Source: Planctomycetota bacterium (GTDB lineage: Bacteria > Planctomycetota > Phycisphaerae > UBA1845 > UTPLA1). From it: a DNA stretch of 64,000 nt. Positions 14,418 to 43,080 of the stretch are shown here, piece after piece. A program made the position numbers and the translations under genes. The stretch covers positions 1-64,000 of the forward strand of contig JACRIM010000028.1 in assembly GCA_016235815.1 (NCBI GenBank). The letters are read 5' to 3'. The notes beneath the pieces were generated by a model that had not been told where the DNA came from, did not search any database, and was given only the letters and a program-made list of their open reading frames with translations. Positions within the stretch are counted from its first letter, which is position 1. Each line of letters begins with the position of its first letter.

Positions 14418-16034
14418 ATGGGACGAAATCAGATTCAGGGCGACCAGACAGATGACGGAGAGGTCGCGGTAGCGGACGAAGCGGAAGACATCAAGACCCA
14501 GCTTGGCAAGGCGATTGCCGTCAAAGTGGCGGATGCCGGTGTGCTTCGCAAGACGCTGACCGTGACGGTGCCGCGCGACAACATCCAGAAGGAGTTGGAC
14601 CGCGAGTTCGGGGATCTGATAAAGGAATCCATTGTGCCGGGATTTCGACGTGGTCGTGCCCCTCGCCGACTGGTGGAGAAGCGGTTCGGCGGCGAGGTCG
14701 GCGCTCAGGTTCAGACACGTCTTGTTTCCAACGCGTACCTTGCGGCCATTGAGAAGGAAGATATCAAAGTGCTCGGCGACCCCATGATGTGGGTCCGCGA
14801 AAAGGGAGCCAAGGATAACAACGAGCGACTGGTGGATATGCCCACCGCGCTTCAGCAGATGAAGATTCCCGAGGATGGCCCGCTTGAGTTTCGTTGTGAA
14901 GTCGAGGTGAAGCCGCAGTTTACCGTGCCCGCGTTGGACGGCGTGGAGCTGGAGCGGCCCGACTTAAGCATCTCGGATGACGATGTCTCGAAGCAGATTG
15001 ACCGCATCCGGGCACGGCGAGGCCACTGGGCGCCGATGATGGATGGCAAGGTGCAGGAAGATGACCTGCTCATCTGCGATATGGTCCTTACGGTGGATGG
15101 CAAGGAAGTAAAGAAGACTGAAAACATTCAGGTCTTCGCACGTCCACAGCGAATCGAAGGTATCGCGTTTGAGGATCTTGGCGAAAAGTTGAAGGGCGCC
15201 AAAGCAGGGGACTCCAAGACCCTGACCTGCGAGATTCCGGATGACTATGAGATTGCCGAACTACGGGGCAAGCAGGGTGCGTTCGAACTGAAGGTCAATG
15301 AGATCAAGCGAATCGAACTGCCGCCGCTCGACAAGGACTATCTGTCAAACATGGGCTTCGACAGCGAGAAGGAGTACCGCGACTGGGTTCGCAAGCAGAT
15401 GGAGGATCAGCTCGAAACCGAGATCAAGCGCGGCATGCGCGGTCAGGTGCGAAAGTACCTTCTCGACAACACGAAGCTCGATTTGCCGGAAGGTATTTCC
15501 TCACGGCAGACGGAGCGGGCCGTCATGCGCAAGGCCATGGAGCTTCGACAGGCCGGCATCCCCGAAGCCGAGATTATCAAGCACTCCGACGAACTGAAGA
15601 CGGTCGCCCATGAAGAGGCGACCGCCGAGTTGAAGCTGTACTTCATTCTCGAGGAGATTGCAGAGGCTCAGAAGATCGAAGTGACGGAAGAAGAGATCAA
15701 CGCAGAAATTGCCGCCATCGCCCGCTCCTATAACCGCCGCTTTGACCGCGTGCGGGATGATCTGGCCAAGGCCAATGGCATTGAGTCGTTGTATCTCCAA
15801 ATCCGCGACGACAAATGCATCGACGGCATCATCGCCAAGGGCAAGATCGTGAAGATGGATCCGTCGAAGAAGCCGGCCGAAAAGCCCAAGAAGGCGTCCG
15901 AAACAAAGGCGCCGAAGGCGGAAAAGGCCGACGCCGATGAAAAACCGGAAAAGGCGAAGAAGGAGGCCGCTCCGAAAGCCGAAAAGCCAAAGGCGGAAAA
16001 GAAGCCGGCTGCCAAGGGCAAGCCCAAAGCGTGA
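14418..16034 (+). CDS. tig: Trigger factor, ribosome-associated chaperone
   Basis: This 538-residue protein has the ribosome-binding signature PGFRRGRAPRRLVEKRFG (residues 73-90) in the N-terminal domain. A PPIase-like middle domain (about 185-275) and the helical C-terminal chaperone domain (to about 470) follow. It is about 100 residues longer than E. coli Tig: a 35-residue acidic N-terminal extension and a C-terminal tail made of Lys, Ala, Glu and Pro repeats (PKKASETKAPKAEKADADEK onward). GAATGGAG lies 7 bases before the ATG. It is followed by two clpP genes, the common tig-clpP order, although clpX is missing. Expression may be controlled by the terminator-containing leader immediately upstream. 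Confidence 0.95.
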   Translation: MGRNQIQGDQTDDGEVAVADEAEDIKTQLGKAIAVKVADAGVLRKTLTVTVPRDNIQKELDREFGDLIKESIVPGFRRGRAPRRLVEKRFGGEVGAQVQTRLVSNAYLAAIEKEDIKVLGDPMMWVREKGAKDNNERLVDMPTALQQMKIPEDGPLEFRCEVEVKPQFTVPALDGVELERPDLSISDDDVSKQIDRIRARRGHWAPMMDGKVQEDDLLICDMVLTVDGKEVKKTENIQVFARPQRIEGIAFEDLGEKLKGAKAGDSKTLTCEIPDDYEIAELRGKQGAFELKVNEIKRIELPPLDKDYLSNMGFDSEKEYRDWVRKQMEDQLETEIKRGMRGQVRKYLLDNTKLDLPEGISSRQTERAVMRKAMELRQAGIPEAEIIKHSDELKTVAHEEATAELKLYFILEEIAEAQKIEVTEEEINAEIAAIARSYNRRFDRVRDDLAKANGIESLYLQIRDDKCIDGIIAKGKIVKMDPSKKPAEKPKKASETKAPKAEKADADEKPEKAKKEAAPKAEKPKAEKKPAAKGKPKA

Positions 16035-16121: not shown

Positions 16122-16781
16122 ATGGATGAGATCCGCATGTTTCCACATATGACGACGCACACCGGCCGGCCCGATCCGTTTGGATCGATGGCTCAGGGTG
16201 CGCCGTATCAGCGTATTCGAGAGATGTCGATCGAGGACATGCTCCTCGAGAATCGCATTATCTTCCTGGCCGGGCCGATCAATGAACGATCGGCAAGCCT
16301 GGTGATCATGCGATTGCTCTATCTCCAGAGCATCAAGAAGGACCAGGACATTCACCTGTACATCAACTGTCCAGGTGGCATGGTGGATCAGACGCTGGCC
16401 ATCTATGACACGATGCGATTTTTGCAGTGTGACATCGCGACGTACTGCATCGGTCAGGCCGCCAGCGGCGGAGCGATCATCCTGACGGCCGGCACCAAGG
16501 GCAAGCGCTACGCCCTGCCGAACAGCAAGATCATGCTGCATCAGCCGTGGGGTGGAATCACCGGTCAGGCTGAGGATATTCGCATCCAGGCCGAGGAGAT
16601 TCTGAAGGATAAGAAGAAACTGAACGAGATCATCGCGTTCCACACCGGAATGCCGACGGACAAAATTCAGGAAGAAACGGAGCGCGACCGCTACATCGAT
16701 CCGTTTGAGGCGGTCAAGTGGGGCCTCGTGGATGAAATCCTCGAAGCCGGCGGACCGAAGAAAGACAAAGAGAAGAAATAA
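16122..16781 (+). CDS. clpP: ATP-dependent Clp protease proteolytic subunit, copy 1
   Basis: This is a 219-residue serine peptidase of family S14 that forms the barrel of the Clp protease. The catalytic triad is complete: Ser115 in GQAASGGA, His140 in MLHQPWGG and Asp189 in ERDRYIDP, with the 25- and 49-residue spacings of E. coli ClpP. The motif around Ser reads ASGG instead of the usual ASMG, a small change beside the nucleophile. The C-terminus is Lys-rich ([10 protein letters not shown]). GAAGGGAC precedes the ATG. The gene lies 87 bases after tig and 19 bases before the second clpP, so the three are probably cotranscribed. The pair may form a mixed ClpP1P2 barrel, which is an inference. 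Confidence 0.95.
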
Positions 16782-16800
16782 CGGCAAGAAGGAGCGGCCG

Positions 16801-17442
16801 ATGGTCAGCAATAATGGTACGTTGATTCCCTTCGTGATCGAGCGAACGGGCCGCGGCGAGCGGTCCTACGACATCTATTCGCGCCTGCTGAAGGACCGCA
16901 TTGTGTTCCTCGGCGGACCGGTGGATGACGACGTGGCAAACGCGATCGTCGCGCAGATGCTCTTCTTGTCGAATGAGGATCCGAACGCGGACATTCACTT
17001 CTACATCAATTCGCCCGGTGGAAGCGTCTCGGCGGGTCTGGCCATCTACGACACCATGCAGTTTGTACGGTGCGACGTGGCGACCTATTGCGTCGGCGTG
17101 TCGGCCAGCATGGGCGCGATCCTGCTTTGCGGCGGCGCCAAGGGCAAGCGATATTCGTTGAACAACTCGCGCGTGCTTCTGCACCAGCCGCTCATTGGCG
17201 GCTATATGCAAGGTGCGGCGACGGATCTATCCATCGAGGCCCAGGAAATCCTGCGACTTCGCGAGATTCTCTACGGCATCATCCAGAAACACTCCGGCGC
17301 TCCGATGAAAAAGATCGAGAAGGACTGCGACCGAAACCTCTGGCTGGCTCCCACCGAGGCGATGGAATATGGCCTGATCGACAAGATTCTCGAACGGCAG
17401 CCGGATGTTGCACGCCGGCCGGCTTCGTCGGATGATGAGTAA
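16801..17442 (+). CDS. clpP: ATP-dependent Clp protease proteolytic subunit, copy 2
   Basis: This 213-residue paralogue of the preceding gene also has a full triad: Ser103 in [10 protein letters not shown], His128 in LLHQPLIGG and Asp177 in CDRNLWLAP, with the same spacings. Its serine motif is the canonical ASMG. It differs from copy 1 over most of the remaining length, so the duplication is old rather than recent. ATG 16801 is favoured by AAGGAG a few bases upstream; the frame is open further left but overlaps copy 1. The stop codon TAA is followed at once by the ATG of the next gene, indicating one operon. Usual partners ClpX/ClpA must be encoded elsewhere. Confidence 0.95.
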
Positions 17443-18090
17443 ATGAATTCACGACTGTCGAGGTTGCCGGGGGGCAAGATAGCGGCGATGGTCTGCGCGC
17501 TGATTGCACTCACCGGTTGCGACCCGACAGCCGGCGGTAACGGCGTTTCCCAATCAAATGATTTCGAACAAAAGCTCGCGGAGGCCAACCGCATCCGCGC
17601 GGCACAGAGCGATCAGCTTGCCGAACAGGCCCGCGTGATACAACAGCTGCGCGGCATGGATGCCTCGAAGCGGTTGGAGCAATTGGTCCATGTCGATCGC
17701 ATCGAAATTGAACGCCTTTCCGGCGGCTACGACGACGACAAAGACGGCCGCGACGACGGCGTCATCGTGTATTTGCGGTTGCTCGACGCCGAAGGCGATG
17801 TCATCAAGGCGACAGGGTCGGCGTCCGTGAAGTTGTTCGACCTCTCCAAAGGTGATGGCGGACAGCCGGTTGCCCAGGGCCGATGGACGGCTGAGCAGAT
17901 GCGGACACTCTGGTTTGGAAAAATGATGACCGACCACTACTCATTGCGCGTTCCCTTACCCAGCGGCATCTCGATTACGCCCGGGGCGCCACTTACCGCC
18001 ACAGTCGAATTCACGGATTTGATGACCGGGCGGACCTTTCAAGCTCAAAAGCCATGCGAAGTCGCCGGTCTGGCGTCGGCAAACCCCTAG
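17443..18090 (+). CDS. Lipoprotein of unknown function at the end of the clp operon
   Basis: This 215-residue protein has an N-terminal signal and lipobox (ALIALTGC, Cys near residue 26). A short coiled-coil segment (FEQKLAEANRIRAAQSDQLAEQ, about 45-70) and a beta-rich domain (about 85-205) follow. That domain contains YDDDKDGRDDGVIVYLRLLDAEG and ends FTDLMTGRTFQAQKPCEV. The Asp-rich loop could bind calcium. The ATG abuts the stop codon of the second clpP, so translation is probably coupled. I do not recognise the domain. A role in envelope stress would fit the operon but is not shown by the sequence. Confidence 0.8.
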   Translation: MNSRLSRLPGGKIAAMVCALIALTGCDPTAGGNGVSQSNDFEQKLAEANRIRAAQSDQLAEQARVIQQLRGMDASKRLEQLVHVDRIEIERLSGGYDDDKDGRDDGVIVYLRLLDAEGDVIKATGSASVKLFDLSKGDGGQPVAQGRWTAEQMRTLWFGKMMTDHYSLRVPLPSGISITPGAPLTATVEFTDLMTGRTFQAQKPCEVAGLASANP

Positions 18091-18528: not shown

Positions 18529-20997
18529 GTGAGCATGGAAGCACGCGGGTGGAATGAACAAGGGGCACGGGTCCGGCTGGTGGCGCAGCATCGCAACGCG
18601 CGGCAACCCGTGCGCGAAGTGAAAGAGATCGTCACGGTGCTGGGGTCGGGTGACGGATGCGATTTGATTCTTGCTTCGAGCAAGGTTGACACGGCGCACG
18701 CGGCAATCATCAAGCTAAATGACACGGCCTATTTGTGCGACCTCGGCGCGGTCGGCGGCACGACGCTGAATCGCCGGCGAATTCGTTGGGCGCGATTGGC
18801 GGATGGCGACAATCCGGTGTTGGGTCCGTTTAGTTTCAAAGTCGAAATGGAAGAAGGACCGAATCCGATTCACTCGGCGCATCCGGCGTTCTCGATGCGC
18901 GAGGACCAAACCGTCGGGATCATCAAGAGCGTTGACCCCGTGCTGATCATCGGCAGCGATGCGGGATGTGACATTGTCATCAAAGATGCAACCGTTGCTC
19001 CGCGGCAGGCGATGGTGGTGTGGACGCAGGCCGGACCACTGGTGCGCGATCTGCTTCGTCGCAACAGCGTCCGACGAAACGGCGAGCGCATCAACGAGGC
19101 CATGCTTGAGCATGGCGATTGCGTCGGCGTCGGCCGGTTTGAATTGGTTTTCGAAATTCTCGCCAACACCGAGTATGCCCCCACAAAACGAGAAGCGAAC
19201 GACTACGCGAACGCCATCACCGAACCAGCAATCGAATCGATGCCGGCACCGGTGACGACGCGGTCGGCTGCAACGAGCAAAGTGGCCCACCCAGCGGCGA
19301 CGCTGTCCATGCCGCTCGTGTCAGTCGGTCAGGTGCCGAGCGTAACGCCGCCGACCTACGGAGCGACGGATCATTCCCTTATGCCGGATCGAGTGTGGAC
19401 GCCCGCGGCAAGCAACGATGTCATGACGCCGGCAATGAACGATCGGGAAATGGACACAAAAGCGCGATTCGCCGCGGCACAGACGGCGCTCGATGAGCGC
19501 GCTCGAAAGATGTGGGACGGCATTCAGGCCGAGCGCGAGCGGCTCCGGGCCTATCAGGAAGAACTGCAGCGCAAATCGAGAGAGCTTCTCGATACGGCGC
19601 AACGGAAATACGACGAGCTTCGGCAACGTGAGGAACAGATGGCCGAGGAGGCGAATCGTCGCGAAACCATCGTTGCCGAATCACCTCCGCCCATCATCAT
19701 TGATGAGATGCCGACCATGATCGAAACGCCGTCGGCTGTCACCACGTCGCCGACCCCGGCGCCTCCCCCGCGTGAGGATGAGTCCACGCTCGATCGAATC
19801 TTCAGCGGCATTTTTGAACCGGAAGCTGCTACGCTTCGCAACGCCGAAGAAACGGCGCGGATTGCGGAGTCGCTGGCGACAAACGGAATCAAGACGCCCG
19901 AGGCCGACACCAACCTCGCGCGACAGGCGGGCGAATTGGCGGAGTTGGTGCGGTACGAGCGGGAGCAGATGGAAACCGCGGAAGGCCGGCTGGAGACGCT
20001 GCGTTTCGAAATCGAACGACTGCACGCCACGGTCGCGCGTACGCAGGACAGAATCCGAACTCAAGAATCACAACTGGAGACCCGCACGCAGTCGATTCGC
20101 ACGGCGCAGACGGCAATTCGCAAGGATCGAGAGGAAATTGCCGCCCGTATACGTCAGCTCGACGCCAAAGACGCCGCCCTCAAGGCCCGTATGGAAGAGG
20201 CGGACCGGGCACGGCGAGAGTTGGAACGCGAGACACGTCAGTTGGCCCGATTGCAGGAGGAGCACGAGGAACGACGCCGCGAGCTGCGACTGAGCCTTGA
20301 GAGCGAGCGACATCGATTGCGAGTCCGTCAGGCCGAGCTGCAGAAGAAGGCGGCCGAGCTTGTCAAAGCGGCCAAAGCGAAGCGGCGGATCATTGAGGAT
20401 GAAGTAGCCTTCAAGCAGGCCGAGATCGAAGAACGCGAAATCGAATTGAAGGCCCGTCGAACAGCCCTGACCGACGCGGGCCGTGCCCAACTGGAACGCA
20501 CGGCAGCCGAGTTGGAACAGGTGCTAACGGTGCGCCTGAATGACATCGAATCCGAAGTCGCCCAGCGACAACAGGAATTGGACGCCCGGATGGGCGAACT
20601 GATTTCCACGACCGGCGCGGGCGATCCGCAGTCGTCGGAGTCGGCGACATTGGAGATGTCGCTCGAAGAGATTGCCGCACTCGCCCGGTTGGATGCAAAC
20701 GACGGGCAGGGCGACTTGTCTCGACTCGAAGTATTACAAGGCGAGGTCGAGGCGCTGCGCCATGCGGTCGGCCGGTTTGACGATCAGGAAGAATCGCTTC
20801 GCGCCGCGACGCATGAGGCGCAGCTCGCGGCGCTGGCAAGCCGCCGAAATCAGCTTCAACGCGAACAGCGTTGGGCAACGATCCTCCGCGCCAAACTGAA
20901 TGAGAAGGCGGCTGCTTTGAGAGATGGTCAACCGGAGGCGTCCACCGAGCCTTCCGCGGAACAGGCTGCGAAGGAAAAGTCAGCGACCGCGTCGTGA
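18529..20997 (+). CDS. Double FHA-domain protein with long coiled coil
   Basis: This is an 822-residue cytoplasmic protein without a signal peptide. Two forkhead-associated domains occupy about residues 12-95 (VLGSGDGCDLILASSKVDTAHA) and 120-205 (LIIGSDAGCDIVIKD, then NSVRRNGERI); FHA folds bind phosphothreonine. A Pro/Thr-rich linker leads to a coiled coil of about 450 residues rich in Glu, Arg, Gln and Ala. The segment TALDERARKMWDGIQ, then ERLRAYQEELQRKSRELLD (about 317-350) is homologous to part of the giant protein encoded next. Start GTG 18529 or ATG 18535. It is followed after 158 bases by that giant gene, then a glycosyltransferase. A Ser/Thr kinase-dependent assembly role is plausible but inferred. 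Confidence 0.85.
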   Translation: MSMEARGWNEQGARVRLVAQHRNARQPVREVKEIVTVLGSGDGCDLILASSKVDTAHAAIIKLNDTAYLCDLGAVGGTTLNRRRIRWARLADGDNPVLGPFSFKVEMEEGPNPIHSAHPAFSMREDQTVGIIKSVDPVLIIGSDAGCDIVIKDATVAPRQAMVVWTQAGPLVRDLLRRNSVRRNGERINEAMLEHGDCVGVGRFELVFEILANTEYAPTKREANDYANAITEPAIESMPAPVTTRSAATSKVAHPAATLSMPLVSVGQVPSVTPPTYGATDHSLMPDRVWTPAASNDVMTPAMNDREMDTKARFAAAQTALDERARKMWDGIQAERERLRAYQEELQRKSRELLDTAQRKYDELRQREEQMAEEANRRETIVAESPPPIIIDEMPTMIETPSAVTTSPTPAPPPREDESTLDRIFSGIFEPEAATLRNAEETARIAESLATNGIKTPEADTNLARQAGELAELVRYEREQMETAEGRLETLRFEIERLHATVARTQDRIRTQESQLETRTQSIRTAQTAIRKDREEIAARIRQLDAKDAALKARMEEADRARRELERETRQLARLQEEHEERRRELRLSLESERHRLRVRQAELQKKAAELVKAAKAKRRIIEDEVAFKQAEIEEREIELKARRTALTDAGRAQLERTAAELEQVLTVRLNDIESEVAQRQQELDARMGELISTTGAGDPQSSESATLEMSLEEIAALARLDANDGQGDLSRLEVLQGEVEALRHAVGRFDDQEESLRAATHEAQLAALASRRNQLQREQRWATILRAKLNEKAAALRDGQPEASTEPSAEQAAKEKSATAS

Positions 20998-21034
20998 TGC
21001 GGCGAGTGGATAGGATGACGGGGGATGAACGGCG

Positions 21035-21049
21035 GGCAGGATGCCTGCC
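21035..21049. repeat. Short intergenic palindrome (GGCAGG-ATG-CCTGCC)
   Basis: A 6-bp stem with a 3-base loop stands in the gap between the FHA gene and the giant coiled-coil gene. Palindromes of the same CAGG/CCTG design occur at 50386-50405 and 63591-63609, and a related one at 52087-52106. This suggests a dispersed REP-like family. Confidence 0.55.
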
Positions 21050-21155
21050 GTGGTTGGATGAGAACGATCGCGATCCCATTAAGGGCGCGACCGACTCGAT
21101 GACCGAATAGGGCGGACCCGTTGTTGCGGCGGGTCGGCCACGAACGGAGTAGTTC

Positions 21156-24100
21156 ATGGATCGGGACAATCAGCAACCCACACCGAACAAGACGACTGCG
21201 CCCCCCAACGGGCGGCCGCCGGGTGTCCCCGGTTTGGCGGCCTCCGCCGAAGCGGACTTTGCAAGCGATCTCGAGCGCATTGCGTCGGCATCATGGAACA
21301 TCGAGACGACGACCAAACGGCTGGATTCCGTCGCGCCCGGCGAGACGCCGCTGGACGGGTCGCGCCTGGGTCGCGTGGGACGCCTGTTTGGCGGTGCCAA
21401 GAGCGGCCTTTTGTCGGCGGTGGGACGGTCGGGCCGGAATGGCGAGAGTCTGCGCACCGGAGCGACGACAAGCGGGGTACAATCAGATATCGCGGCGCAA
21501 GGGGCGGCGCACGACGAAGTGGGGGAGTATACTGGTCACGTGGACGAGCCGGATGTACTGGCGTCGTCTGACGATACGTCGATTCAAGTCGGTGCGAGCG
21601 AGCGCCGCCTGACGGACCCGCAACGCCACGACCGCCTGGACGGCGACATGCCTACTCCCCCTATCTCACAGGATGCGACGGCCAACGCCGCTGAACCTGA
21701 CTTGCTCAGTCAGGCTGCCGGACCGCTTCAGGGCCTCGATCGATTGCAAAATGAGCTAAAGCAAGCTCGCGAGGAGTTGAACAATCTTCGCAACAAGGGC
21801 ACCGGTGCCTCACCGACAGTGGGGTCTGTTGATTCGCAACGAGAGAAGCTGGATCAACGCGCCATTGAGCTTCGCGAGCGGGTCGTCCGTGCGCAGCAGG
21901 CGCTGGATGAGCGGGCCAAGAAACTGAGAACCACGCTCACTGAAGAACGCGAGAAACTCAAGGCCTACCATGCGCAGCTGCAACGAAAACAGCGACAGCT
22001 TGAGGAGGCATCCCGAAACCAAAAGGTTGCCGTCGAGGGCGAATTAGCCAAGCAGCGAGATTTGCTGGAAGCCGAGCGGACGGAGTTGGACCGTCGGCGC
22101 ATTCAGCTTGATGCGTTGGAGGCCGACCTGCGCGATCAGTCGCGACAGGAAGTCGCCAAGCGTCGAAAAGAGCTGGAAGCCGCGGTTGAGAATCGGCTGG
22201 CCGAGTTGCAGAAAGAGTTTGAGGTCCGCCAGATCCAGTTGGACGCCAAAGAACGGGCCTTGGCGGAAAAAGAGGCCGGCGTTGAGCAGATCATCCAAAA
22301 GCGGATGATGGATGTGAAGCATCAATCGTCTCAGTGGCAATTGCAGCTGGAAGAAAAAGAACGGTCGATTCAGATTCGCGAGCAGCAATTACAACATGCC
22401 GCGGCGAATCGGCTCGATCAGGTTCGTCGGGATGCGGAGGCATATGAGCAGGAACTGCTGGCCCGCGAACGCGAACTGAACGACAAAGAAGCCCAGTTGG
22501 CGTCTTCGATCGACTCTCGAATCGCTACGCTTGAGCGCGAGCACGCTGAACGACAGGCCGAATACGACGCAAAGCTTCGCAATCTCTTCGAACGCGAAGG
22601 TCAGCTCAATCGCGTCCACGAAACCCGCATGAACGAGCTTCGCCGCGAATGGGAGACGCGCGAGCACGAATTTCAGCAGAAGGTGCAATCACTGGCCGAC
22701 CAGGAGACACGGCTGCGGCAGGAGTTGGAGCAAAAGCGTGCCGAGTCGGATCGAGAAGCGGCACAACGGCAGGCGGATTTCGAGAACAAACTGCGTCAAC
22801 TCGCCGAACGAGAAGAGACGCTTCAGGACGCGGTGAATGCCCGTCTTGAGCAGGTCAAGCGCGAAGCAGCAGCCAAGGCCGCGGAATTCGACGCCCGCGA
22901 ACGGGCCATCCGGGACCGCGATTCCGAACTTCAGGAGGCGGCAAACCTCCGCATTCTGGAGATGCGCCGACAAGTCGAACTGAAGTCCGTCGAGTTGGAA
23001 GCCCTCGAACGCTCGCTTACCAAGCGCGAGTCGGATCTTGAAACAGTCGTCAAGGAACGCATTGAAGAAATGCAGCGGGCCTTGGCCGAGAAGCGCGCCG
23101 AAGTCGAGCGTCGCGAACGCGCCGTCGGTGAAGCGGAAGGCGACCTTAAGGGGCGCCGTGAGGCATTTGAGAAGGCCCGGGACGCTCGTGAAGCCGAATT
23201 GAAGGCCAAGGCCGAGGAGTACGCCGAACTGGCAAGGCTCTACGGCGACAAATCAACGGCCGAGGCCACGCTCGCCGGCCGCCGCGCCGAATTGGAATTG
23301 CGTCAGGAAGAAATCGCCCGGCGAACCGACGACATCGAATCGCGCGAGCGACGACTGCGCGAATGGCAGCACCGCCTGGAGAGCATGGAGCCGTCGCTGG
23401 AGACGAGCCGGCTCGAATTGCAGCGTCGCCAGGCCGCCGCGGAGCACGCGGAGAAGTCGAACCAGCAGATCGCGGATCAATTGGCCGAGCGGTCGGAGTC
23501 CATCCGAAAACAAACCGACGACCTGTGCCGGCGCGAAGATCAACTGCGAACGCGAATCGATGAGCTGAATCGAAGTGAGTCGACGCTTCGACAACAGCAC
23601 GACGAAGTATTGCGGCTCAAGCGCGGCATCGAGGATGAATCCGCACGGCTCAAGCAGGAACGCGAGCGCTACGCAGACCTCGAAAAAGGCTGGCAGGAAC
23701 ATGAGAAGCAGCGCGCGACCCTGCTGGAAAAGACGAGCGAGATTACGAATCGCGAGTCGGCGCTAAAGCAGCGCGAGGTCGAGCTTTCCGGCGAAATTGC
23801 CAAGGCCGAGCAGGCCGGGCGTGAGTTGGCGGTGGCTCGCCAGAAGCTGGACGCCGAGCGGGCGGATTTGGCGGCTCGCGAGGAAGCGATTCGGCAGGAA
23901 TCGATCCAAATCAAGCGAACGGAAGAAGAAGTCACTCGGATTCGCGGCGAGATCGACCGTGATCGTGTGAAGCTGGTCGAGGCGCAAACCGCCCACGCCC
24001 AGATCGTCGCGGCGAGCGAGCGCCGGCTCGAAGAAATTTCCCGACAGCACAGCGAACTGGCCGAAGCGAGATCCGCCCTGCAGATTGCGCAGACACAGTT

Positions 24101-27100
24101 GCAATCAGAACGCTCGGCGCTTCGATCGGAACAGGCCGCATTGCAGCAGGAGCGACAACGCCTCGCCTCCGATCGCTCGGTGTTGGATCGCGACCGGCAA
24201 TCGCTGGATGAACAGATTGCGACGATTCAACGCGACCGGGATGAACTCGGCGCGAAGAAAGCGCAGCTGGAATCGGAACTGGCCCGCCTGGAGCGGGATC
24301 GCATTTCATTAAAGGATCGGGAGCGGACCGTTTCGGAGCAGAAGAGCCGGCTCGATTCGGCCCAGAGTGAGATTGAGCAACTCCGCATCGAGCTTGGCAA
24401 ACGCACCGACGAGACGGACGAAATGCGCCGCGTTCTGTCGGAGAAGGCCGAGCGAATGCGCATGCGAAAAGCCCGTCTGGCCGAAGACGCGGCAATGGTC
24501 GACACCAAGATCAAGCAGCTCAACAACGAACTTGAGACGGTTCGCGTTGAAAAGGCAAAGATTGCCGAGGATCGCACATCCCTTGACGAGCGGTTCAAGG
24601 CCTTCGAGATCGAGCGACAACAAATCGCGACCCAGCGCGACGAATTGACGGCCGGACAGAACTTGCTCGAGCAGGCCCGCACCGCATTTGATGATGAACA
24701 ACAGCGATTGGCCGACCGTGAAGCGAGACTGACCGAGCGTGGGAATCAGTTGGAGGCCTTTGGCACCCGGCTCAAGACGGAATATGCCGAACTTCAAAAA
24801 CAGCGAGCCGAATTAGTCGAAGTCGAGGCCCGTGGCGAAGCCCACGAAAAACTCGCGGCCCTTCTCAAGCAGGCCGAGGCCCGCGAATCGGCCGTACGGG
24901 AACGGGAACAGGCCCTGTCGGCGCAGGAGCGGGCATTGTCCGCGGTTGCGGCGGAGGTCTCGGCGGCCGAGGAAGATATCAAACGCAAGACCAAGAGTGT
25001 TGAATCCCGCTCGCGGGAACTGGAGCAGGAGATTCGGGCGCTGGAAACGCAACGCCGCGAATTCCAGAACCTGATGGACGAACAGCGCGGCGAGTTGTCG
25101 CATCTGCGGCGGCAGGCCGAATTGGAAATCGCCCGCGAGCGCGACAAACTGCGCGAGCAGGAGCGTGAGCTGGAGATTGCCTTCGCCCGCCAGCGCGATG
25201 CCATCGACACCGAGGGAGAACAGCGCGAAGAGATGACCATCGGTGAGATGCGGCGTCGCGTCGAGGCCAGTCTGGCGGAGCGGCTTGCGGAGATTGCCCG
25301 CAAAGAGCGGCAGGTCGAGGAACGCTGCGAGAAACGAATTGCCGAAGTCGAGCGTGACATTGAACAGCGGCTGGCGCAGCTCGCGGAAAACATCAAGAAA
25401 CAACGTGAACGGGCCGAGCTTGACCTGCACAAGGAGTTAAACGTTTCCGTATTGCCGACGGAACCGACGACGCAATCGATCCAATCGCGACCGGCGGCAG
25501 AGGCCGACTCTGGTCTTGTGGATTTGAGTCAATCGTCCGAGCTGGACGAGAAAATCGCCATCGCAACGGCCGCCGTCGATCAGGTCTTGGCGAAACCGAT
25601 TCCCGATGAATCGATCACCGTCCCGCCGCCGGAGACCCCGCTTGCAATCGCAGACGCCGCGCAGCCCGCACCGGCCATGGATGATCGGGTTTGGTTGGAT
25701 GAGTCAGCCGTTGATCTGCAGGAACCGGTTGGCGAGATGACGAACTCCGACTTCGTCTTGGTCGCGGATGAGGACGAGTATGTGTCGCCGGTGGCCACGG
25801 CGGGCGGCGCGCGGGGGCGATCATGGAAACAATTGGCCGTAATGACTGGAATCTTTGTGATCGCAATAACCGTCGGCGGATTGGCCGGCACCGCCTACCT
25901 CTATTCGCCGACAGGCGACGTCGAAGTACGCAGTGTCATTCGGCCGGCCAACGGTGACGGCCGCAGCGTTTCCGAGCATCTTGCCGCGATCACCAGCGAC
26001 ACGGTTCTGAGCGAGGCCACGCGGCGCAGTGGGTCGGATATGCAGGCCATGATCCGTGACCGTCGACTGACAATTACGCCGTCCCCAGAGGGCAACGCCC
26101 TGCTCCTGGTGGTGAACGCAACCTCAAGTCAGCGGGCAGCGGCCCAGGGCTGGCTGGACGCGATCGCCACGGCCTATCAGGCATCACTCGCGACGACGAC
26201 CGAATCGAAGGAGTCCATGGAACAACGGGTGACCGCGCTGGAAACCGAACGTGCGGAAAAGCAAGAGGCGCTCGAAGCCGCCCGACGAGAGGTCGAGCGA
26301 CTTGAGTCGTCCGCTGCGGACCGGGTGGATCCAGCCGAACTGCAAACGATTCGCGATCGCCGCGAAAACCTTAAGATCGAACTCGCCAAGGCGCTGTCGG
26401 CGGTTGGCGAATTGAAGGCAAAACTGCAGGCGTTCGAAAATGAACCTGCCCCGAGCGGGCCGGTGGTGCCGTCGGAGGCCCAACTCGCCGAAGCATACGA
26501 AGGCGACACCGAGCTTCGCCAGGCCATGGAGCATCAACGGACGAAGTCGGTGGAACTGCATGCGCTTCTTCTTTCGTCGATGGCCAAATCGCAGGAACCG
26601 TTTGACGGCTTGTTGAAATCGATTGACGCATGGCTTGGGGAAATCCGCAAACAACTTGAAACACAGAGCGACAAGGATATTAAGAAGGAGTTGGAGCTAC
26701 TCGCCGTTGATGTGACGGATTATTTGCAGCAGGCTCGCGGTTTCGAAGCTCGTTGGAATGAGTTGAAGCCGAGGGTCGAAGCGTGGCATGTTGGAATCGA
26801 TCCAACCGCGCTGAGTGAATATCAGAAGCAGGCCGAGACCCTTATTCGAGAGTTTCATGCCAGGAGTCGAAACACCTTTGCCGAAGCGGCGAAAAAGGCG
26901 GACGACCTGAGCCGGAGCGGCTCGGAGATGGCCCAGCGGCGCGTATTGCAAAGCACCATGACGCGATACGCCCATGACAGCCTCGCCGCGAGGAACACAT
27001 GGACCATCGCGGCGCGCAGCATCGTGCCCCGCTACGAGGTCGAGTTGAAGGCGCTGATGGCTGCGGTTGCCGATGTCGCGCCGCGAATTAGTGAGCGACA

Positions 27101-27575
27101 GAATCATCATCGCGAACGAGTCGCCGAACAGTTGCTGAAAGCCCGGGCGGATGAACATCATGCACGGTACGAACGACTCAAGGCCGAGTTGGAGGCCGCC
27201 AATCGCCGGCATGAGCAATTATCCGACGACTTTTTGAAGATCGACAAAGCCGCGGCTGCATCGACGGTGTCCACAGAAACCGTTGAACAGCATCGACAGG
27301 CACTTGCGGCCGCCCGTCAGAAAGTAACGGACCTCGAGTCCGTGATTGCTTCCCTGGGCGAAACGATCGATTCCGCAAAGGCCACTCCGATGGGAAGTGT
27401 GCGCCGCGCCGGGACCATTCGCTATGACCGGCTTGGCACGTCCGAATCACCGATGTTCGACATGACCAAAGCGCGACAGGCAATCGCGCTCGGTGCTGTC
27501 GTTTCGTGTCTCTTCGTTGTCTGCGTCTGGATTCTGAATCGAAGTCGCCCGCGTCCCGTGACGACGCGGGCGTGA
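21156..27575 (+). CDS. Giant coiled-coil protein with C-terminal Wzz-like two-transmembrane module
   Basis: This 2139-residue protein has no signal peptide. Residues 1-190 are low complexity. About 190-1490 are an almost unbroken coiled coil with recurring heptads and phrases such as DARERAIRDRDSELQEAAN. After an acidic linker comes transmembrane helix 1 (about 1561-1584, LAVMTGIFVIAITVGGLAG). A segment of about 520 residues with further coiled coil and the opening YSPTGDVEVRSVIRP follows, then helix 2 (about 2109-2127) and a basic tail. The last third has the topology of Wzz/polysaccharide co-polymerases, which set chain length, but without a kinase domain. Residues near 245-275 match the preceding FHA protein. 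A glycosyltransferase gene follows within 40 bases. The overall architecture is new to me. Confidence 0.85.
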   Translation: MDRDNQQPTPNKTTAPPNGRPPGVPGLAASAEADFASDLERIASASWNIETTTKRLDSVAPGETPLDGSRLGRVGRLFGGAKSGLLSAVGRSGRNGESLRTGATTSGVQSDIAAQGAAHDEVGEYTGHVDEPDVLASSDDTSIQVGASERRLTDPQRHDRLDGDMPTPPISQDATANAAEPDLLSQAAGPLQGLDRLQNELKQAREELNNLRNKGTGASPTVGSVDSQREKLDQRAIELRERVVRAQQALDERAKKLRTTLTEEREKLKAYHAQLQRKQRQLEEASRNQKVAVEGELAKQRDLLEAERTELDRRRIQLDALEADLRDQSRQEVAKRRKELEAAVENRLAELQKEFEVRQIQLDAKERALAEKEAGVEQIIQKRMMDVKHQSSQWQLQLEEKERSIQIREQQLQHAAANRLDQVRRDAEAYEQELLARERELNDKEAQLASSIDSRIATLEREHAERQAEYDAKLRNLFEREGQLNRVHETRMNELRREWETREHEFQQKVQSLADQETRLRQELEQKRAESDREAAQRQADFENKLRQLAEREETLQDAVNARLEQVKREAAAKAAEFDARERAIRDRDSELQEAANLRILEMRRQVELKSVELEALERSLTKRESDLETVVKERIEEMQRALAEKRAEVERRERAVGEAEGDLKGRREAFEKARDAREAELKAKAEEYAELARLYGDKSTAEATLAGRRAELELRQEEIARRTDDIESRERRLREWQHRLESMEPSLETSRLELQRRQAAAEHAEKSNQQIADQLAERSESIRKQTDDLCRREDQLRTRIDELNRSESTLRQQHDEVLRLKRGIEDESARLKQERERYADLEKGWQEHEKQRATLLEKTSEITNRESALKQREVELSGEIAKAEQAGRELAVARQKLDAERADLAAREEAIRQESIQIKRTEEEVTRIRGEIDRDRVKLVEAQTAHAQIVAASERRLEEISRQHSELAEARSALQIAQTQLQSERSALRSEQAALQQERQRLASDRSVLDRDRQSLDEQIATIQRDRDELGAKKAQLESELARLERDRISLKDRERTVSEQKSRLDSAQSEIEQLRIELGKRTDETDEMRRVLSEKAERMRMRKARLAEDAAMVDTKIKQLNNELETVRVEKAKIAEDRTSLDERFKAFEIERQQIATQRDELTAGQNLLEQARTAFDDEQQRLADREARLTERGNQLEAFGTRLKTEYAELQKQRAELVEVEARGEAHEKLAALLKQAEARESAVREREQALSAQERALSAVAAEVSAAEEDIKRKTKSVESRSRELEQEIRALETQRREFQNLMDEQRGELSHLRRQAELEIARERDKLREQERELEIAFARQRDAIDTEGEQREEMTIGEMRRRVEASLAERLAEIARKERQVEERCEKRIAEVERDIEQRLAQLAENIKKQRERAELDLHKELNVSVLPTEPTTQSIQSRPAAEADSGLVDLSQSSELDEKIAIATAAVDQVLAKPIPDESITVPPPETPLAIADAAQPAPAMDDRVWLDESAVDLQEPVGEMTNSDFVLVADEDEYVSPVATAGGARGRSWKQLAVMTGIFVIAITVGGLAGTAYLYSPTGDVEVRSVIRPANGDGRSVSEHLAAITSDTVLSEATRRSGSDMQAMIRDRRLTITPSPEGNALLLVVNATSSQRAAAQGWLDAIATAYQASLATTTESKESMEQRVTALETERAEKQEALEAARREVERLESSAADRVDPAELQTIRDRRENLKIELAKALSAVGELKAKLQAFENEPAPSGPVVPSEAQLAEAYEGDTELRQAMEHQRTKSVELHALLLSSMAKSQEPFDGLLKSIDAWLGEIRKQLETQSDKDIKKELELLAVDVTDYLQQARGFEARWNELKPRVEAWHVGIDPTALSEYQKQAETLIREFHARSRNTFAEAAKKADDLSRSGSEMAQRRVLQSTMTRYAHDSLAARNTWTIAARSIVPRYEVELKALMAAVADVAPRISERQNHHRERVAEQLLKARADEHHARYERLKAELEAANRRHEQLSDDFLKIDKAAAASTVSTETVEQHRQALAAARQKVTDLESVIASLGETIDSAKATPMGSVRRAGTIRYDRLGTSESPMFDMTKARQAIALGAVVSCLFVVCVWILNRSRPRPVTTRA

Positions 27576-27614
27576 TGGCGCTCACCACTTCATCGCAAGG
27601 GCACTGATCACACC

Positions 27615-28706
27615 ATGATCCGCGTCATGATCGTGGCGACGGACTTGGAACTCGGCGGTTTGCCGCTGCGGCTCGCCCGTCTCGCGCCCTACCTTCGACG
27701 GGCGGGAGTGGAGCCGATCATCGGGTGTCTCTCCCGGCCCGGGCCGGTGTCGGCGATGCTTGAAAAGGCCGGTTTTTCGACATTTTCCTGCGACGCCGCC
27801 GGTCGATTCGACGCATCGTGTTTGGCGCGGCTGGCGACTCGGGTGCGTCGGTTCAATCCGGATGTGCTTCAGGGCGGTCTGTTTCACGCGAATCTGGCGG
27901 TTCGGATGGTGGGGCGGTGCGATCGTGTTCGGCCGATCGTGACATCAACGGTCACAATTGAGATTGAGCGCCGTTGGCATTGTTGGGGCGAGTCTCTGAC
28001 GGCGGGGCTTTCGGACGCGCATGTGGCGAACTCCAATGCTGTGGCGTCGCACCTCGTGGAAGAACTTGGCTTTCCGCGGGAACGAGTCTCCGTGATTCCC
28101 AATGGCGTGGACGCCGACGCCATCGCTGCGGCGCCTCCAATCGATCGCGCAACATGGATGCTGCCCGCCGATGCTGCGTTGCTCGTGTGGGTAGGTCGTA
28201 TGGACCCGGTGAAAGACCTGACGACGCTTGTAAACGCAGTGAACATCGTGCGGGATCGTCATCCCGTGGCTCTCGCCCTCATCGGCTCCGGGCCTGAGCG
28301 AAGCGCCGTCGAGCGACGGATCGCGGAGTGCCAACTGTGTGGCATCGTCCGATGCGTGGGATGGCGCGAGGATGTTGCGTCGTGGCTGCGGGCGGCGGAC
28401 GCCCTTGTGCTCACGTCTCGAACGGAAGGCTCCCCCAATGTCGTACTTGAGGCCATCGCAGCGCAGTGTCCGGTCGTGGTAAGTGATCTTCCATGCTGCC
28501 GGGAGTTGGTCACCAGTCCATTCGTGGGGCGGTTGTGTCGGGTTGGTGACACAGCCGATTTCGCATGGGGAATTGAAGCGGTTCTGTCAGGGGGGCTTCG
28601 GGCGTTGGCGGCCGCGAACCGCCAGGCCATCCTTAGCCGCCATCGACTTGACGCCATTGGCTGGCAGTGGCGACAGTTGTACGATTTGGTGCTGTCGCAC
28701 AAATAG
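27615..28706 (+). CDS. Family 4 glycosyltransferase (GT-B fold)
   Basis: This 363-residue protein starts MIRVMIVATDLELGGLPLRLARL, the usual glycine-rich N-terminal strand and loop of GT4 enzymes. Later motifs are HVANSNAVASHLVEELG with VSVIPNGVD (about 138-172), VWVGRMDPVKDL (about 194), a LIGSGPERSAVE donor-site strand and the E-x7-E element EGSPNVVLEAIAAQCPVVVSD (about 275-295). These enzymes transfer a sugar from a nucleotide donor with retention. Donor and acceptor cannot be read from sequence. It lies 39 bases after the giant Wzz-like gene, so both probably act on the same surface polysaccharide. Confidence 0.9.
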   Translation: MIRVMIVATDLELGGLPLRLARLAPYLRRAGVEPIIGCLSRPGPVSAMLEKAGFSTFSCDAAGRFDASCLARLATRVRRFNPDVLQGGLFHANLAVRMVGRCDRVRPIVTSTVTIEIERRWHCWGESLTAGLSDAHVANSNAVASHLVEELGFPRERVSVIPNGVDADAIAAAPPIDRATWMLPADAALLVWVGRMDPVKDLTTLVNAVNIVRDRHPVALALIGSGPERSAVERRIAECQLCGIVRCVGWREDVASWLRAADALVLTSRTEGSPNVVLEAIAAQCPVVVSDLPCCRELVTSPFVGRLCRVGDTADFAWGIEAVLSGGLRALAAANRQAILSRHRLDAIGWQWRQLYDLVLSHK

Positions 28707-28845
28707 CCCGATAATGCGGCCTTGTGAATTCCTTGAGGGGATCAGGAACAATCGCCACAAACTTATTCCCTATCGAAACTTCTAAACAACGAGCGAATCC
28801 GCCGAAAAAAAGTCGGAGACAATCGGTTTTTCCCTTGCACGCAAG

Positions 28846-28891
28846 GTGGGGCTTTGTGTAGAGTAAGCCCATGAAGTGGGGATTGGTGGGT
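28846..28891 (+). promoter_or_regulatory. MraZ operator: phased GTGGG boxes
   Basis: GTGGGG at 28876 and GTGGGT at 28886 are exactly 10 bp apart. A third box, GTGGGG, lies at 28846, three turns upstream, with a degenerate GTGTAG at 28856. MraZ proteins are known to bind direct TGGGN repeats at 10-bp spacing in front of their own gene. The boxes lie 24-69 bases before the mraZ ATG. Confidence 0.75.
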
Positions 28892-28914
28892 AACGCCAAT
28901 TCCTTAGGAAAACC

Positions 28915-29364
28915 ATGGTTTTCACTGGCTACTACGAGCACTCCATCGATGAAAAAAACCGCCTCGCAATCCCGGCCAAGTTTCGAAGCCGCCTGGATGC
29001 TGAGCGCGATGGCCGGTGCTTCGTGCTCGTTCCGGGGCAGCCGGAAAACACCCTTTGGATCTATACGGAGCGCGGCTTCGAAAAGATCGCCGAGCGTACC
29101 GAACCGACTTTCACCCCCAGCAAGGACCGCCTTCGCTGGGAGCAGATGTTCTACTCCAGCGCCGAAACCCTTGAGCCCGACACACAGGGGCGGATCGTTA
29201 TTCCGCCCCGGATGCTGTCGCGTGCCGGCCTTGGGCGCGAAGTCGTTATCTGCGGCGTCCGCGACCATCTTGAGATTCGTCGACGGGATGAGTTCGACCG
29301 TGAGCTGGAAGGCTACTGGTCCGACCTTCGCCGACAACAGTCGTCTGGCGCAAGTGAATCCTAA
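28915..29364 (+). CDS. mraZ: Transcriptional regulator MraZ
   Basis: This 149-residue protein has two SpoVT/AbrB-like halves. The first is FTGYYEHSIDEKNRLAIPAKFR (residues 3-24), with the family signature of a D-x-K-x-R loop. The second is EPDTQGRIVIPPRMLSRAGLGREVVICGV (about 87-115). MraZ binds DNA as a ring oligomer and represses its own operon, normally the division and cell wall (dcw) cluster. Here no rsmH, ftsI or mur gene follows; the next genes are a doubtful small frame and a convergent DUF1264 gene. The operator is intact just upstream, so autoregulation is likely, but its targets must be elsewhere. Start ATG 28915 opens MVFTGYYEH, as in family members. Confidence 0.95.
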   Translation: MVFTGYYEHSIDEKNRLAIPAKFRSRLDAERDGRCFVLVPGQPENTLWIYTERGFEKIAERTEPTFTPSKDRLRWEQMFYSSAETLEPDTQGRIVIPPRMLSRAGLGREVVICGVRDHLEIRRRDEFDRELEGYWSDLRRQQSSGASES

Positions 29365-29469
29365 GTGCGGCATCTGCCCTCAGTGCGGGCAGTCAACCTG
29401 ACCAACGGGATGATGCGTGGTCGTCCCGGAGGTGGGTAGTTTCGAGACTGGCGGCGGAAGGAGACTCGG

Positions 29470-29952: not shown

Positions 29953-30690
29953 CTAAGGTTTTGCGTCGGGCCGCTTTGTCGGCTCATCCTTGCCCTTGTT
30001 TGTCCATCGCCGGGCAATGTCCTTCATGGATTTCGGCGGCGAGACCTGCGGCACTTCAAATCCCATGAACTCGCGGCGCTTGCGGATTTCACTCGTGCTG
30101 ATGTTGAACTGCGCATCGCGCTTGGAGATTAGTGCCTCGTTGATCTGACCGTCTCCATTGGCCGACCACATCAGCATCGGCTCGCCCATGGGGATTGCCG
30201 TGCTCGGGTCCGGCCACGTGTGCCATGTTTTACCCCACGACGTAATGAACCCGACAAATGCGTCGTCGCCCATCTTCGGCATATCCGGTGCGACGAGCTG
30301 CCCAGAGAGAATCTCATAAGCGTGCGGGTGCCAGTACTTCTTTTCGTCGCTCGGGAGCTTCTGGTAGATCTCGTCGTTGATGATGTACTCCGTGCCAAGC
30401 AGCTTGGAGTTCGGGCCGCGCGAATCGAATACGGCGCACTGGTGAATGTCGCCGATCGGTGAACAATAGTGGTGCGCCTCGACTTGGAATTTGGGGTCCT
30501 TCTTTCCAATGTGGAAGGCACACAGGTACAGGCCCATCTTCTCGACCGGCGCCCAATTGACCGGGTCCTTTTGCCCGCCCTTGTGGTCATCGCCCTGCAC
30601 GACGGTGTGGTTCGACCATGCCACCGCCAGGGCCAGACAACAACCGATCACAATGCAGCCTCGCAGCAGGCCCTTTTGACGTGGAATCAT
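29953..30690 (-). CDS. DUF1264 (oil-body-associated-like) exported protein
   Basis: This 245-residue protein has an N-terminal signal or membrane anchor (GCIVIGCCLALAVAWS). The conserved core matches DUF1264: VEAHHYCSPIGDIHQCAVFDS, LLGTEYIINDEIYQKLPSDEKKYWHPHAYE, then GKTWHTWPDPSTAIPMGEP and the D-GQINEALI turn. This family includes plant oil-body-associated proteins and many bacterial members of unknown function; conserved His and Trp residues suggest ligand binding, but no activity is established. The C-terminal tail is Lys/Pro-rich. It is monocistronic, with a strong terminator just beyond its stop codon. Confidence 0.88.
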   Translation of the reverse strand: MIPRQKGLLRGCIVIGCCLALAVAWSNHTVVQGDDHKGGQKDPVNWAPVEKMGLYLCAFHIGKKDPKFQVEAHHYCSPIGDIHQCAVFDSRGPNSKLLGTEYIINDEIYQKLPSDEKKYWHPHAYEILSGQLVAPDMPKMGDDAFVGFITSWGKTWHTWPDPSTAIPMGEPMLMWSANGDGQINEALISKRDAQFNISTSEIRKRREFMGFEVPQVSPPKSMKDIARRWTNKGKDEPTKRPDAKP

Positions 30691-30853
30691 GTGTACTCCT
30701 TGGTTTCAGTTTTTCCGCCGCGAGTCGCAGGACCGATACACGCCATCGGACAAGCCTGACTCGGGCGATTGTCTTCGGCGAATACGGTAAGACGTTCGTG
30801 AAAAGGTGGCAAGCCGCCTGTTGCCATGGCGATTCGTTCCTTACTATCCCGTC

Positions 30854-32839: not shown

Positions 32840-33019
32840 ACTTGGAAATCGCCCCCTGCGGTCTTTCCTATGGCCCATCCTACCCGGTAATATAGTGTTT
32901 AACGATAACATTCGCTGCAAGGTCAGGGGAAGAGTGGAGAAGCGCGTTGTTATCCATTTCCCTTGAACCCGCTGGCGAGCGCGCGCATGGCAGGATGCCG
33001 TGTGTTGAGGAGCCATTCA

Positions 33020-42800: not shown

Positions 42801-43080
42801 TGGGGGCGATTGCAACGGCAACGGCATTCCCGATGCATGCGAAATTCTGGAAGGCTCGGAATTGGACTTGAATAATGACACCGTTCCCGATTCATGCCAG
42901 CGCCTTGGCGACTTGAACCTGGACGGCAACCGAGACGAGCTTGATCTGGGAATATTGGTCAACGTACTGCTTGGATTAGACACCGATCCGCCTCACATCT
43001 CGGCGGCCGATTTGGATGGCAGCGGTGATTCAAATGGAGACGATATTCAGATTTTCACACGTATCTATCTCGGCTCCTGA
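39892..43080 (+). CDS. Secreted di-haem cytochrome c peroxidase-like protein with FG-GAP repeats and dockerin end
   Basis: This is a 1062-residue exported protein. The signal peptide ends near AVASA. Residues about 25-215 resemble a lamin-tail domain. A MauG/CcpA-like di-haem domain follows, with two CxxCH sites, CVTCH at 247-251 and CFKCH at 425-429, and peroxidase phrases VLTNIAFSAPYGHSGEF and IGISHTAPYFHNN. From about residue 620 there are several FG-GAP/VCBS-type repeats (AADIDGDGHVDLVVPG, IADFNGDGRLDVAAP, AGDLNGDGRADIIAS), a beta-propeller with calcium loops. The end is dockerin-like (GDLNLDGNRDELDLGILVN). Haem attachment requires export before maturation. An electron-transfer or oxidative surface role is likely. 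Start GTG 39892 is only weakly supported. Confidence 0.88.
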   Translation: MSQLVKYVGWMMAFVAAAAAVASADPLAIQIDEVCAGLNGDSRVQFVELKFQTPADAQWGPQPGEAASRLQLVFQDAHGDVTATFQFPSDAPIGVIDPDTGGYSCLLATSEFSQLPGAPIPDFLIPAVLVPVAGRVSLSNNPANSNATPLNLCLSYGNYASDTGTDTLGQPAGPPAAQLPITGVSACKRIQNFSNYGTGQFNVDFSVSTPAPRNSAGATGAFVAASIVDQGRSLFLFETFAGNGRSCVTCHRPDQQFGLSPTKISFLSPSDPLFVAETNPALSALENSCLLRSSRGLNLENIDGFANPPMFRAPPVLTNIAFSAPYGHSGEFTNLKQFAVAAVQQHLPKTLARNSDPMAGSLDFRLPTVAEQEAMEAFMLTIKMPADGNFNVTRMIDAAIARGGDAMAIQRGRDLFNGTIGSAKCFKCHSGPIFAASVPALGGGNRAFNTGVSALAINASFPDQCLGGQPMPAESNGNRTFSTPGLIGISHTAPYFHNNAVQTLREAVAFYTGPEFNNSPSAFDPQVGTISLSSQDIDDLTAFLTALDEPFVDCNGDSLDDRVQIAQSGGDCNGNGVLDKCELTDNDCNVNLVPDECDLARVVFGPPASISTTTGGFHVAAADIDGDGHVDLVVPGWTAANVRVLLNDGIGGFTSADPFSVSPFPRALAIADFNGDGRLDVAAPALLSNLVSILLNSGTDEMSNWLGLTGATPVLLNAGPGQQTGPIHVLAVDISGDGWPDLVVCKNFTNQLAVAINLGSDGMGGWNGFGPSTDYPTLGISPWTAAAGDLNGDGRADIIASNRSTDSIAVFLNNGVGGLGAATLNTVQDSPESVILADLNGDQLLDVAVGNADSDTVSVLLGDGAGSFGPQTVLIVGSYPFGAQPHSIVAVDVDRDGDFDLIAANKVSKNISVLLNDGAASFSPPFNLPMDAGPDCSAMADFDGDGRLDIAAIKYADASCVIVTNLTPAFGGDCNGNGIPDACEILEGSELDLNNDTVPDSCQRLGDLNLDGNRDELDLGILVNVLLGLDTDPPHISAADLDGSGDSNGDDIQIFTRIYLGS

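Follow-up and report, generated by a model that had tools for sequence, protein, structure and literature searches.

A 64,000-nucleotide stretch of a Planctomycetota genome (class Phycisphaerae; contig JACRIM010000028.1; hereafter the window) carries a gene for a 2139-residue protein, the giant, in which a very long cytoplasmic coiled coil precedes a membrane module that appears remotely related to the polysaccharide co-polymerases (PCPs). Its neighbours encode a double-FHA protein and a GT4 glycosyltransferase, and mraZ, the head gene of the division and cell wall (dcw) cluster, follows directly. We propose, with a probability of about 0.45, that the locus encodes a membrane-anchored, PCP-like scaffold coupling the cytoplasmic coil to dcw-linked assembly of an envelope glycan or of the wall and, as part of the same reading, that it is a lineage-specific elaboration of the dcw head in an FtsZ-less planctomycete order. 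The locus bears on how planctomycetes manage wall building and division in the absence of FtsZ. It yields two order-wide, single-copy candidates tied to dcw, of which we found no description, namely the PCP-like membrane protein (dcw-linked in the window's family, f1) and the GT4; one family adds the giant coiled-coil version and a partner protein. The three open reading frames (ORFs) listed in a first-pass annotation of the window proved real, in coordinates and strand:

18529..20997, plus strand: double-FHA coiled-coil protein P0001, 822 aa (ORF, Pfam)
21156..27575, plus strand: P0002, the giant, coiled coil and C-terminal PCP-like membrane module, 2139 aa (ORF, conservation, AlphaFold2 (AF2) model)
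27615..28706, plus strand: GT4 glycosyltransferase P0003, 363 aa (ORF, Pfam)

The giant matched no Pfam family. Only two transmembrane (TM) helices were seen in it, enclosing about 530 residues, and the tail after the second comprises about 12 residues, with no kinase. The parts of the module are as follows:

25824..25901, plus strand: TM1, giant residues ~1557-1582 (AF2 model, hydropathy)
25917..26180, plus strand: alpha/beta base domain, probable homologue of the Wzz/Wzc base (hhalign, AF2)
26208..27383, plus strand: periplasmic helical bundle, partly absent from Wzz (AF2, alignment)
27462..27539, plus strand: TM2, giant residues ~2103-2128 (AF2 model, hydropathy)

The AF2 model (pLDDT 81.5 for the window module and 78.6 for the base alone) presents, in order, TM1, a strand, helices, two strands, a helix, the helical bundle, a closing strand and TM2, the base having the succession b-a-a-a-b-b-a. 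The helical bundle carries a conserved W348 and a GxEMTxRR block (module numbering). The PCP-like topology claimed in the first-pass annotation was thus borne out by both model and hydropathy. That annotation had staked its proposal on a PCP-like fold and a conserved gene order; the gene order held, and the predicted fold did not go against the proposal, being suggestive when taken alone, not decisive.

The relation to PCPs was examined by profile comparison. No match to PF02706 or PF13807 (Wzz/GNVR) was obtained with the window module at E<=10 or with 19 family members at E<=1; by the Pfam criterion, therefore, the module is not a member of the Wzz family. We then used as comparison profile the PF02706-positive Wzz/Wzc proteins of the same order (20 loci). 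With hhalign, the base domain gave 95.4% (E=1.9e-8) and the whole module 98.2%, the latter alignment being collinear from TM1 to TM2 with about 170 extra columns in the module. Controls for the base (reversed, column-shuffled and unrelated-family alignments) reached at most 2.6%, and 25%, the coiled-coil background, was obtained when the whole module was compared with reversed Wzz. Without TM1, the base scored 81%. Independent subfamilies aligned in identical register (f4, 96%; f8 and f2 together, 94%; f1 alone, 52%). A PDB profile search placed Wzc just short of significance (E ~0.07-0.1); the same search with the whole module returned generic coiled coils only, and comparison with a viral fold library yielded nothing noteworthy. 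Of the PCP relation proposed for the module, remote homology to Wzz/Wzc therefore stood and the direct match to PF02706/PF13807 did not. Judged by its profiles, the module is a remote PCP homologue on a divergent branch rather than a Wzz family member.

The module is no chance feature: a search with one sequence found it in 23 of 61 relatives, and a profile search in at least 90 of the 114 genomes of the order, with one member per genome and few exceptions. A search for related loci with a narrow alignment retrieved four, all from Planctomycetota metagenome-assembled genomes. A broader profile added G020 and G027, both negative before, and three f105 genomes from another order of the class; beyond these, the broader search of the class gave only weak partial matches. 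The phylum-wide search scored 4 candidates per genome, so that its negatives are weak, and the class search, which scored 21, is the better test. The periplasmic part measures 483-531 aa throughout the order. The cytoplasmic tail spans 31-92 aa in f8, 16-260 in f5, 206-752 in f4, 750 in f6 and 1375-2016 in f1. Since the periplasmic length is nearly constant and the cytoplasmic one variable, the periplasmic module is the conserved part, presumably also the ancestral one, and the giant coil is an extension particular to one lineage. The same contrast, with a cytoplasmic coil ranging from about 0 to about 2000 residues, suggests that the PCP base is able to function beyond exopolysaccharide (EPS) loci.

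The GT4 (PF13692, E=2e-27; PF13439, E=6e-18) has exactly one ortholog in each of 102 of the 114 genomes (E<=1e-50) and is rare beyond the order (E<=1e-40). In 15 of 16 f1 loci mraZ comes next, and the one exception lies at a contig end:

28915..29364, plus strand: mraZ, dcw head gene, directly 3' of the GT4 gene (Pfam PF02381, E=1.5e-23; adjoins the GT4 in f1 loci)

The three-gene locus described at first pass was therefore right in its ORFs and incomplete on its 3' side, where mraZ comes next on the same strand. This gene had been missed because a longer antisense ORF overlies it. We rejected that minus-strand ORF (28633-29373) as spurious, as it has no Pfam match and lies opposite mraZ; several relatives show the same artefact, there too as an antisense ORF that looks 'conserved'.

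The GT4 heads dcw, without being linked to the PCP-like gene, in families f8 and f7 and in part of f5. The longest dcw run reads miaA-ABC-ABC-GT4-mraZ-mraW-LysM-ftsL?-ftsI-murE-murF, and a run extending through mraZ-mraW-LysM-ftsI is also present in G003 and in G009 and G011, two genomes with a fused FHA-module gene. None of the 61 genomes searched has FtsZ (PF00091), which was recognised in 13 of 14 control genomes; in agreement with this, ftsZ loss has been reported for Phycisphaerae (PMC12283558). The locus thus belongs to the cell-wall and division cluster of bacteria without FtsZ and not to a setting of surface-polysaccharide genes. We considered whether the GT4 substitutes for MurG and rejected this, because 58 of the 61 genomes encode a MurG-family domain. 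Two side observations concern this gene. A SIS-domain protein (GKRP-like, possibly a MurQ relative) adjoins the GT4 in f5 and f4 (L163 7330-8241, L156 9472-10518), and in G010 the giant and GT4-mraZ are set apart by about 5.6 kb of ORFs (L058 1441-7063) in which no domain was recognised.

We considered the possibility that the giant is a conventional PCP, which amounts to the first-pass reading minus its phosphorylation switch. Its module would control how long the chains of a surface polysaccharide grow; Wzy would make this polysaccharide, the GT4 would add a sugar to it, and the coil would be an unusual cytoplasmic regulator. The remote PCP homology of the module would fit this, and so would the GT4 of the window, which is most similar to EPS-type GT4s. 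Yet, apart from that GT4, no EPS gene (Wzx, Wzy, Wza or any other) was recognised in the locus, either in the scanned flanks of the window or in the families examined; the protein lacks a kinase, and the GT4 is linked to dcw across families. Moreover, the canonical Wzz kinase of the same genome sits on another contig, in a full locus with Poly_export and exosortase genes, so that exopolysaccharide already has its own PCP. We regard this explanation as unlikely, and the role in 'surface polysaccharide assembly' that the first-pass annotation had assigned to the locus finds no support as worded, the conserved context being dcw. The exosortase/EPS locus itself (L143 2391-14219, contig C7 of genome G000) encodes Poly_export-SLBB, exosortase EpsH, a TPR protein, a Wzz-AAA fusion and a SIS-CBS protein.

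The cytoplasmic part of the giant and its FHA neighbour have the following features:

18631..18846, plus strand: FHA domain 1, its phosphothreonine-site residues R, S and N being S, D and G here (Pfam, alignment)
18934..19152, plus strand: FHA domain 2, with the same phosphothreonine-site positions replaced (Pfam, alignment)
19435..19605, plus strand: coil-start 'ALDERA...ERxRLxAY' in the FHA protein, common to the giant (phmmer)
21816..25454, plus strand: cytoplasmic heptad coiled coil of ~1213 residues, giant residues 221-1433 (periodicity, proline map, conservation)
21831-22085, plus strand: conserved coil-start motif of the giant (conservation across orthologs)

Residues 221-1433 of the giant contain a single proline (residue 746) and display a sharp hydrophobic period of 3.5 residues (power 21). 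The rise of a helix being 0.1485 nm per residue, the coil would measure about 180 nm if straight and extended. It comprises two conserved blocks, residues 226-300 and 1051-1125. The second (window 24306-24530) is strongly conserved, with f1 members on average 44% identical to the window sequence, versus about 25% around it, and is a possible binding site. We searched for tandem DNA repeats as a recent origin of the coil and found none.

Both FHA domains were recognised by profile (PF00498 and PF16697, E ~1e-18 to 1e-19), the best Pfam match of the region being PF16697, the cytoplasmic FHA-like domain of SctD/YscD. In the FHA fold, phosphothreonine is contacted by the R of GR, the S of SxxH and the N of NG. 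Among 16 orthologs, these contacts were retained for R in 2, S in 1 and N in none in the first domain, and for R in 1, S in 2 and N in 2 in the second. The structural His was kept in 16/16 and 13/16 orthologs, respectively. As a control, every phosphothreonine contact is present in another, unrelated FHA protein encoded by this genome (L144). Because hardly any ortholog keeps these contacts in either domain, a phosphorylation switch appears unlikely and a structural interaction module more likely; the description of the scaffold as 'phosphorylation-responsive' is consequently abandoned.

Family f1 comprises 17 genomes, and in 16 of them the FHA gene is adjacent to the module gene or fused with it, which upholds the conservation of gene order anticipated at first pass; G006 was counted within this set, though its FHA gene and giant sit on contig ends. 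In G004, G009 and G011, one open frame of 2085-2261 aa holds both the FHA domains and the membrane module. In the module tree the earliest branches are the fused forms, (G009,G011) before G004, and the 13 split forms make up one clade with support 96/96. The FHA protein and the giant would therefore most simply be the products of one gene fission. Both daughters carry the coil-start motif ALDERAxKLRxxLxxERExLKAY, and in phmmer the giant's segment matched all FHA orthologs tested, its best match being there. That both daughters keep the same motif suggests fission through duplication and perhaps co-assembly of the two proteins. The member of G003 is short (802 aa), has no FHA gene alongside and falls outside the clade.

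Could the coil be the working part, with the PCP-like domain a mere anchor? The locus would then encode a cytoskeletal or positional scaffold for FtsZ-independent division or shape. A heptad coil of about 1200 residues with conserved blocks at 226-300 and 1051-1125 is what one would expect from such a protein, and the coil-start motif common to the FHA protein and the giant, suggesting co-assembly, as well as the dcw linkage and the absence of FtsZ, are in keeping with it. Yet across most of the order the tail of the protein has less than 100 or a few hundred residues, which places the conserved part in the periplasm and not in the coil. We hold this explanation to be unlikely.

On the 5' side, the locus of the window is preceded by conserved neighbours:

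14418..16034, plus strand: trigger factor gene tig (TIGR00115, Pfam, synteny in 9 f1 genomes)
16122..17442, plus strand: two clpP genes (Pfam CLP_protease, synteny)
17443..18090, plus strand: predicted lipoprotein X, 215 aa, between clpP and the FHA/PCP-like gene (sequence, synteny)

Read from its sequence, lipoprotein X has an N-terminal hydrophobic stretch followed by an LTGC lipobox; it has no match in Pfam or NCBIfam, and families f1 and f2, as well as G003, keep it directly 3' of clpP. The order in G003 is clpP-X-aldo/keto reductase-PCP-GT4-mraZ-mraW-LysM-ftsI, and the remaining gene arrangements can be derived by splitting an order of this type. This derivation, together with the fact that the PCP-like and GT4 genes are unlinked in most families, would fit a neighbourhood passively left over from an ancestral tig-clpP-X-PCP-GT4-mraZ-dcw supercluster, the PCP-like, FHA and GT4 proteins acting in separate pathways; but FHA-giant-GT4-mraZ stays intact where the block has left its tig-clpP context (G005, G009, G011 and G014) and the FHA protein and the giant are one protein in three genomes, and we think such an account distinctly improbable.

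Other neighbours were noted along the way. By eye, an aldo/keto reductase gene lies immediately 5' of the PCP-like gene in f8, in one f5 genome and in G003 (L117, L118, L120, L121, L114, L104), and in f4 (L109 6684-9260, L111 12966-15878) the PCP-like gene stands beside ORFs resembling diadenylate cyclase and YbbR-like repeats. Further 3' in the window are genes for a DUF1264 protein (29953-30690), a TPR protein (30806-32839) found after the locus in several f1 genomes too, a 1466-aa subtilase (32963-37363) and a 1062-aa FG-GAP repeat protein (39892-43080).

The reading that we favour, a PCP-like scaffold linked to dcw, can be put as a mechanism. Its core would be a single-copy inner-membrane PCP relative (TM1, alpha/beta base, periplasmic helical bundle, TM2) that oligomerises in the manner of Wzz. 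The oligomer would organise a periplasmic or membrane site for the assembly of a lipid-linked envelope glycan, or of the wall itself, with the dcw-linked GT4 supplying sugar transfer to a lipid-linked precursor on the cytoplasmic face. In f1, the coil of about 1200 residues, with its degenerate FHA domains as phosphorylation-independent interaction modules, would tether or position the complex. The anatomy and the context on which this rests are well supported; besides the anatomy, the analysis shows the order-wide conservation, the remote PCP homology, the dcw linkage, the fusion and fission, the degeneration of the FHA sites and the absence of FtsZ. What we infer is oligomerisation, the scaffolding role of the coil, the substrate of the GT4 and any part in wall growth or division. 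The giant may thus be an unrecognised scaffold for envelope building. A bolder version is improbable in our estimate: a PCP ring bearing a bundle of ~180-nm cytoplasmic coils would position the dcw-encoded synthases and a dedicated GT4 pathway for FtsZ-independent wall growth or division in this one order of Phycisphaerae.

Several observations weigh against the favoured reading. The long coil is missing from members of other families, so the core role cannot depend on it. Gene context does not amount to function, and in families other than f1 the gene for the PCP-like protein usually lies away from the GT4 and dcw, beside an aldo/keto reductase or diadenylate cyclase gene. In crown f1, mraZ is detached from mraW, and the locus offers no recognised Wzy or Wzx as partner. 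As to structure, a Foldseek search with the base gave chains of KpsE (PCP-3) as the top PDB TM-scores, up to 0.41 but non-significant at E ~0.1, and one with the whole module retrieved mostly unrelated coiled coils, with Wzc at ranks 24 and 39. Finally, the module alignment has no conserved PxxPxxP ahead of TM2, the proline-rich motif typical of Wzz being mostly missing; the motif has been described (PMC7809406).

Compared with known PCPs (Wzz, PCP-1; Wzc, PCP-2a; KpsE, PCP-3), the module shares the two TM helices around a periplasmic domain, the membrane-flanking alpha/beta base with its N-terminal b-a-a-b-b-a part and the closing strand ahead of TM2, as well as profile similarity to Wzz/Wzc and its best structural TM-scores, which are to KpsE. 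It differs by the extra periplasmic helical bundle of ~170 alignment columns, a cytoplasmic N-terminus of up to 2000 residues and a dcw instead of an EPS context, and has neither kinase, clear proline-rich motif nor Pfam match. The FHA protein resembles SctD/YscD (PF16697) and GltG of Myxococcus gliding, the latter a weak NCBIfam match, in keeping the structural FHA residues and losing the binding ones; unlike them, it bears a tandem FHA pair on a soluble coiled coil without a TM helix of its own, and no secretion or motility genes are near it. Bacterial coiled-coil scaffolds and cytoskeletal proteins likewise combine a very long heptad coil with a membrane tether, but apart from generic matches of coiled-coil type (SMC, HmpF) no sequence relation was found. 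For planctomycetes, nothing relevant on giant coiled coils, FHA or Wzz came up in the literature, and the text of a study of dcw in bacteria of the Planctomycetes-Verrucomicrobia-Chlamydiae group (PMC12283558) is without the words glycosyltransferase, FHA or coiled-coil. The cluster described there has the same mraZ-mraW-ftsI-murE-murF order and the same loss of ftsZ in Phycisphaerae; what sets the present one apart is the single-copy GT4 at its head and, in f1, the giant PCP-like gene.

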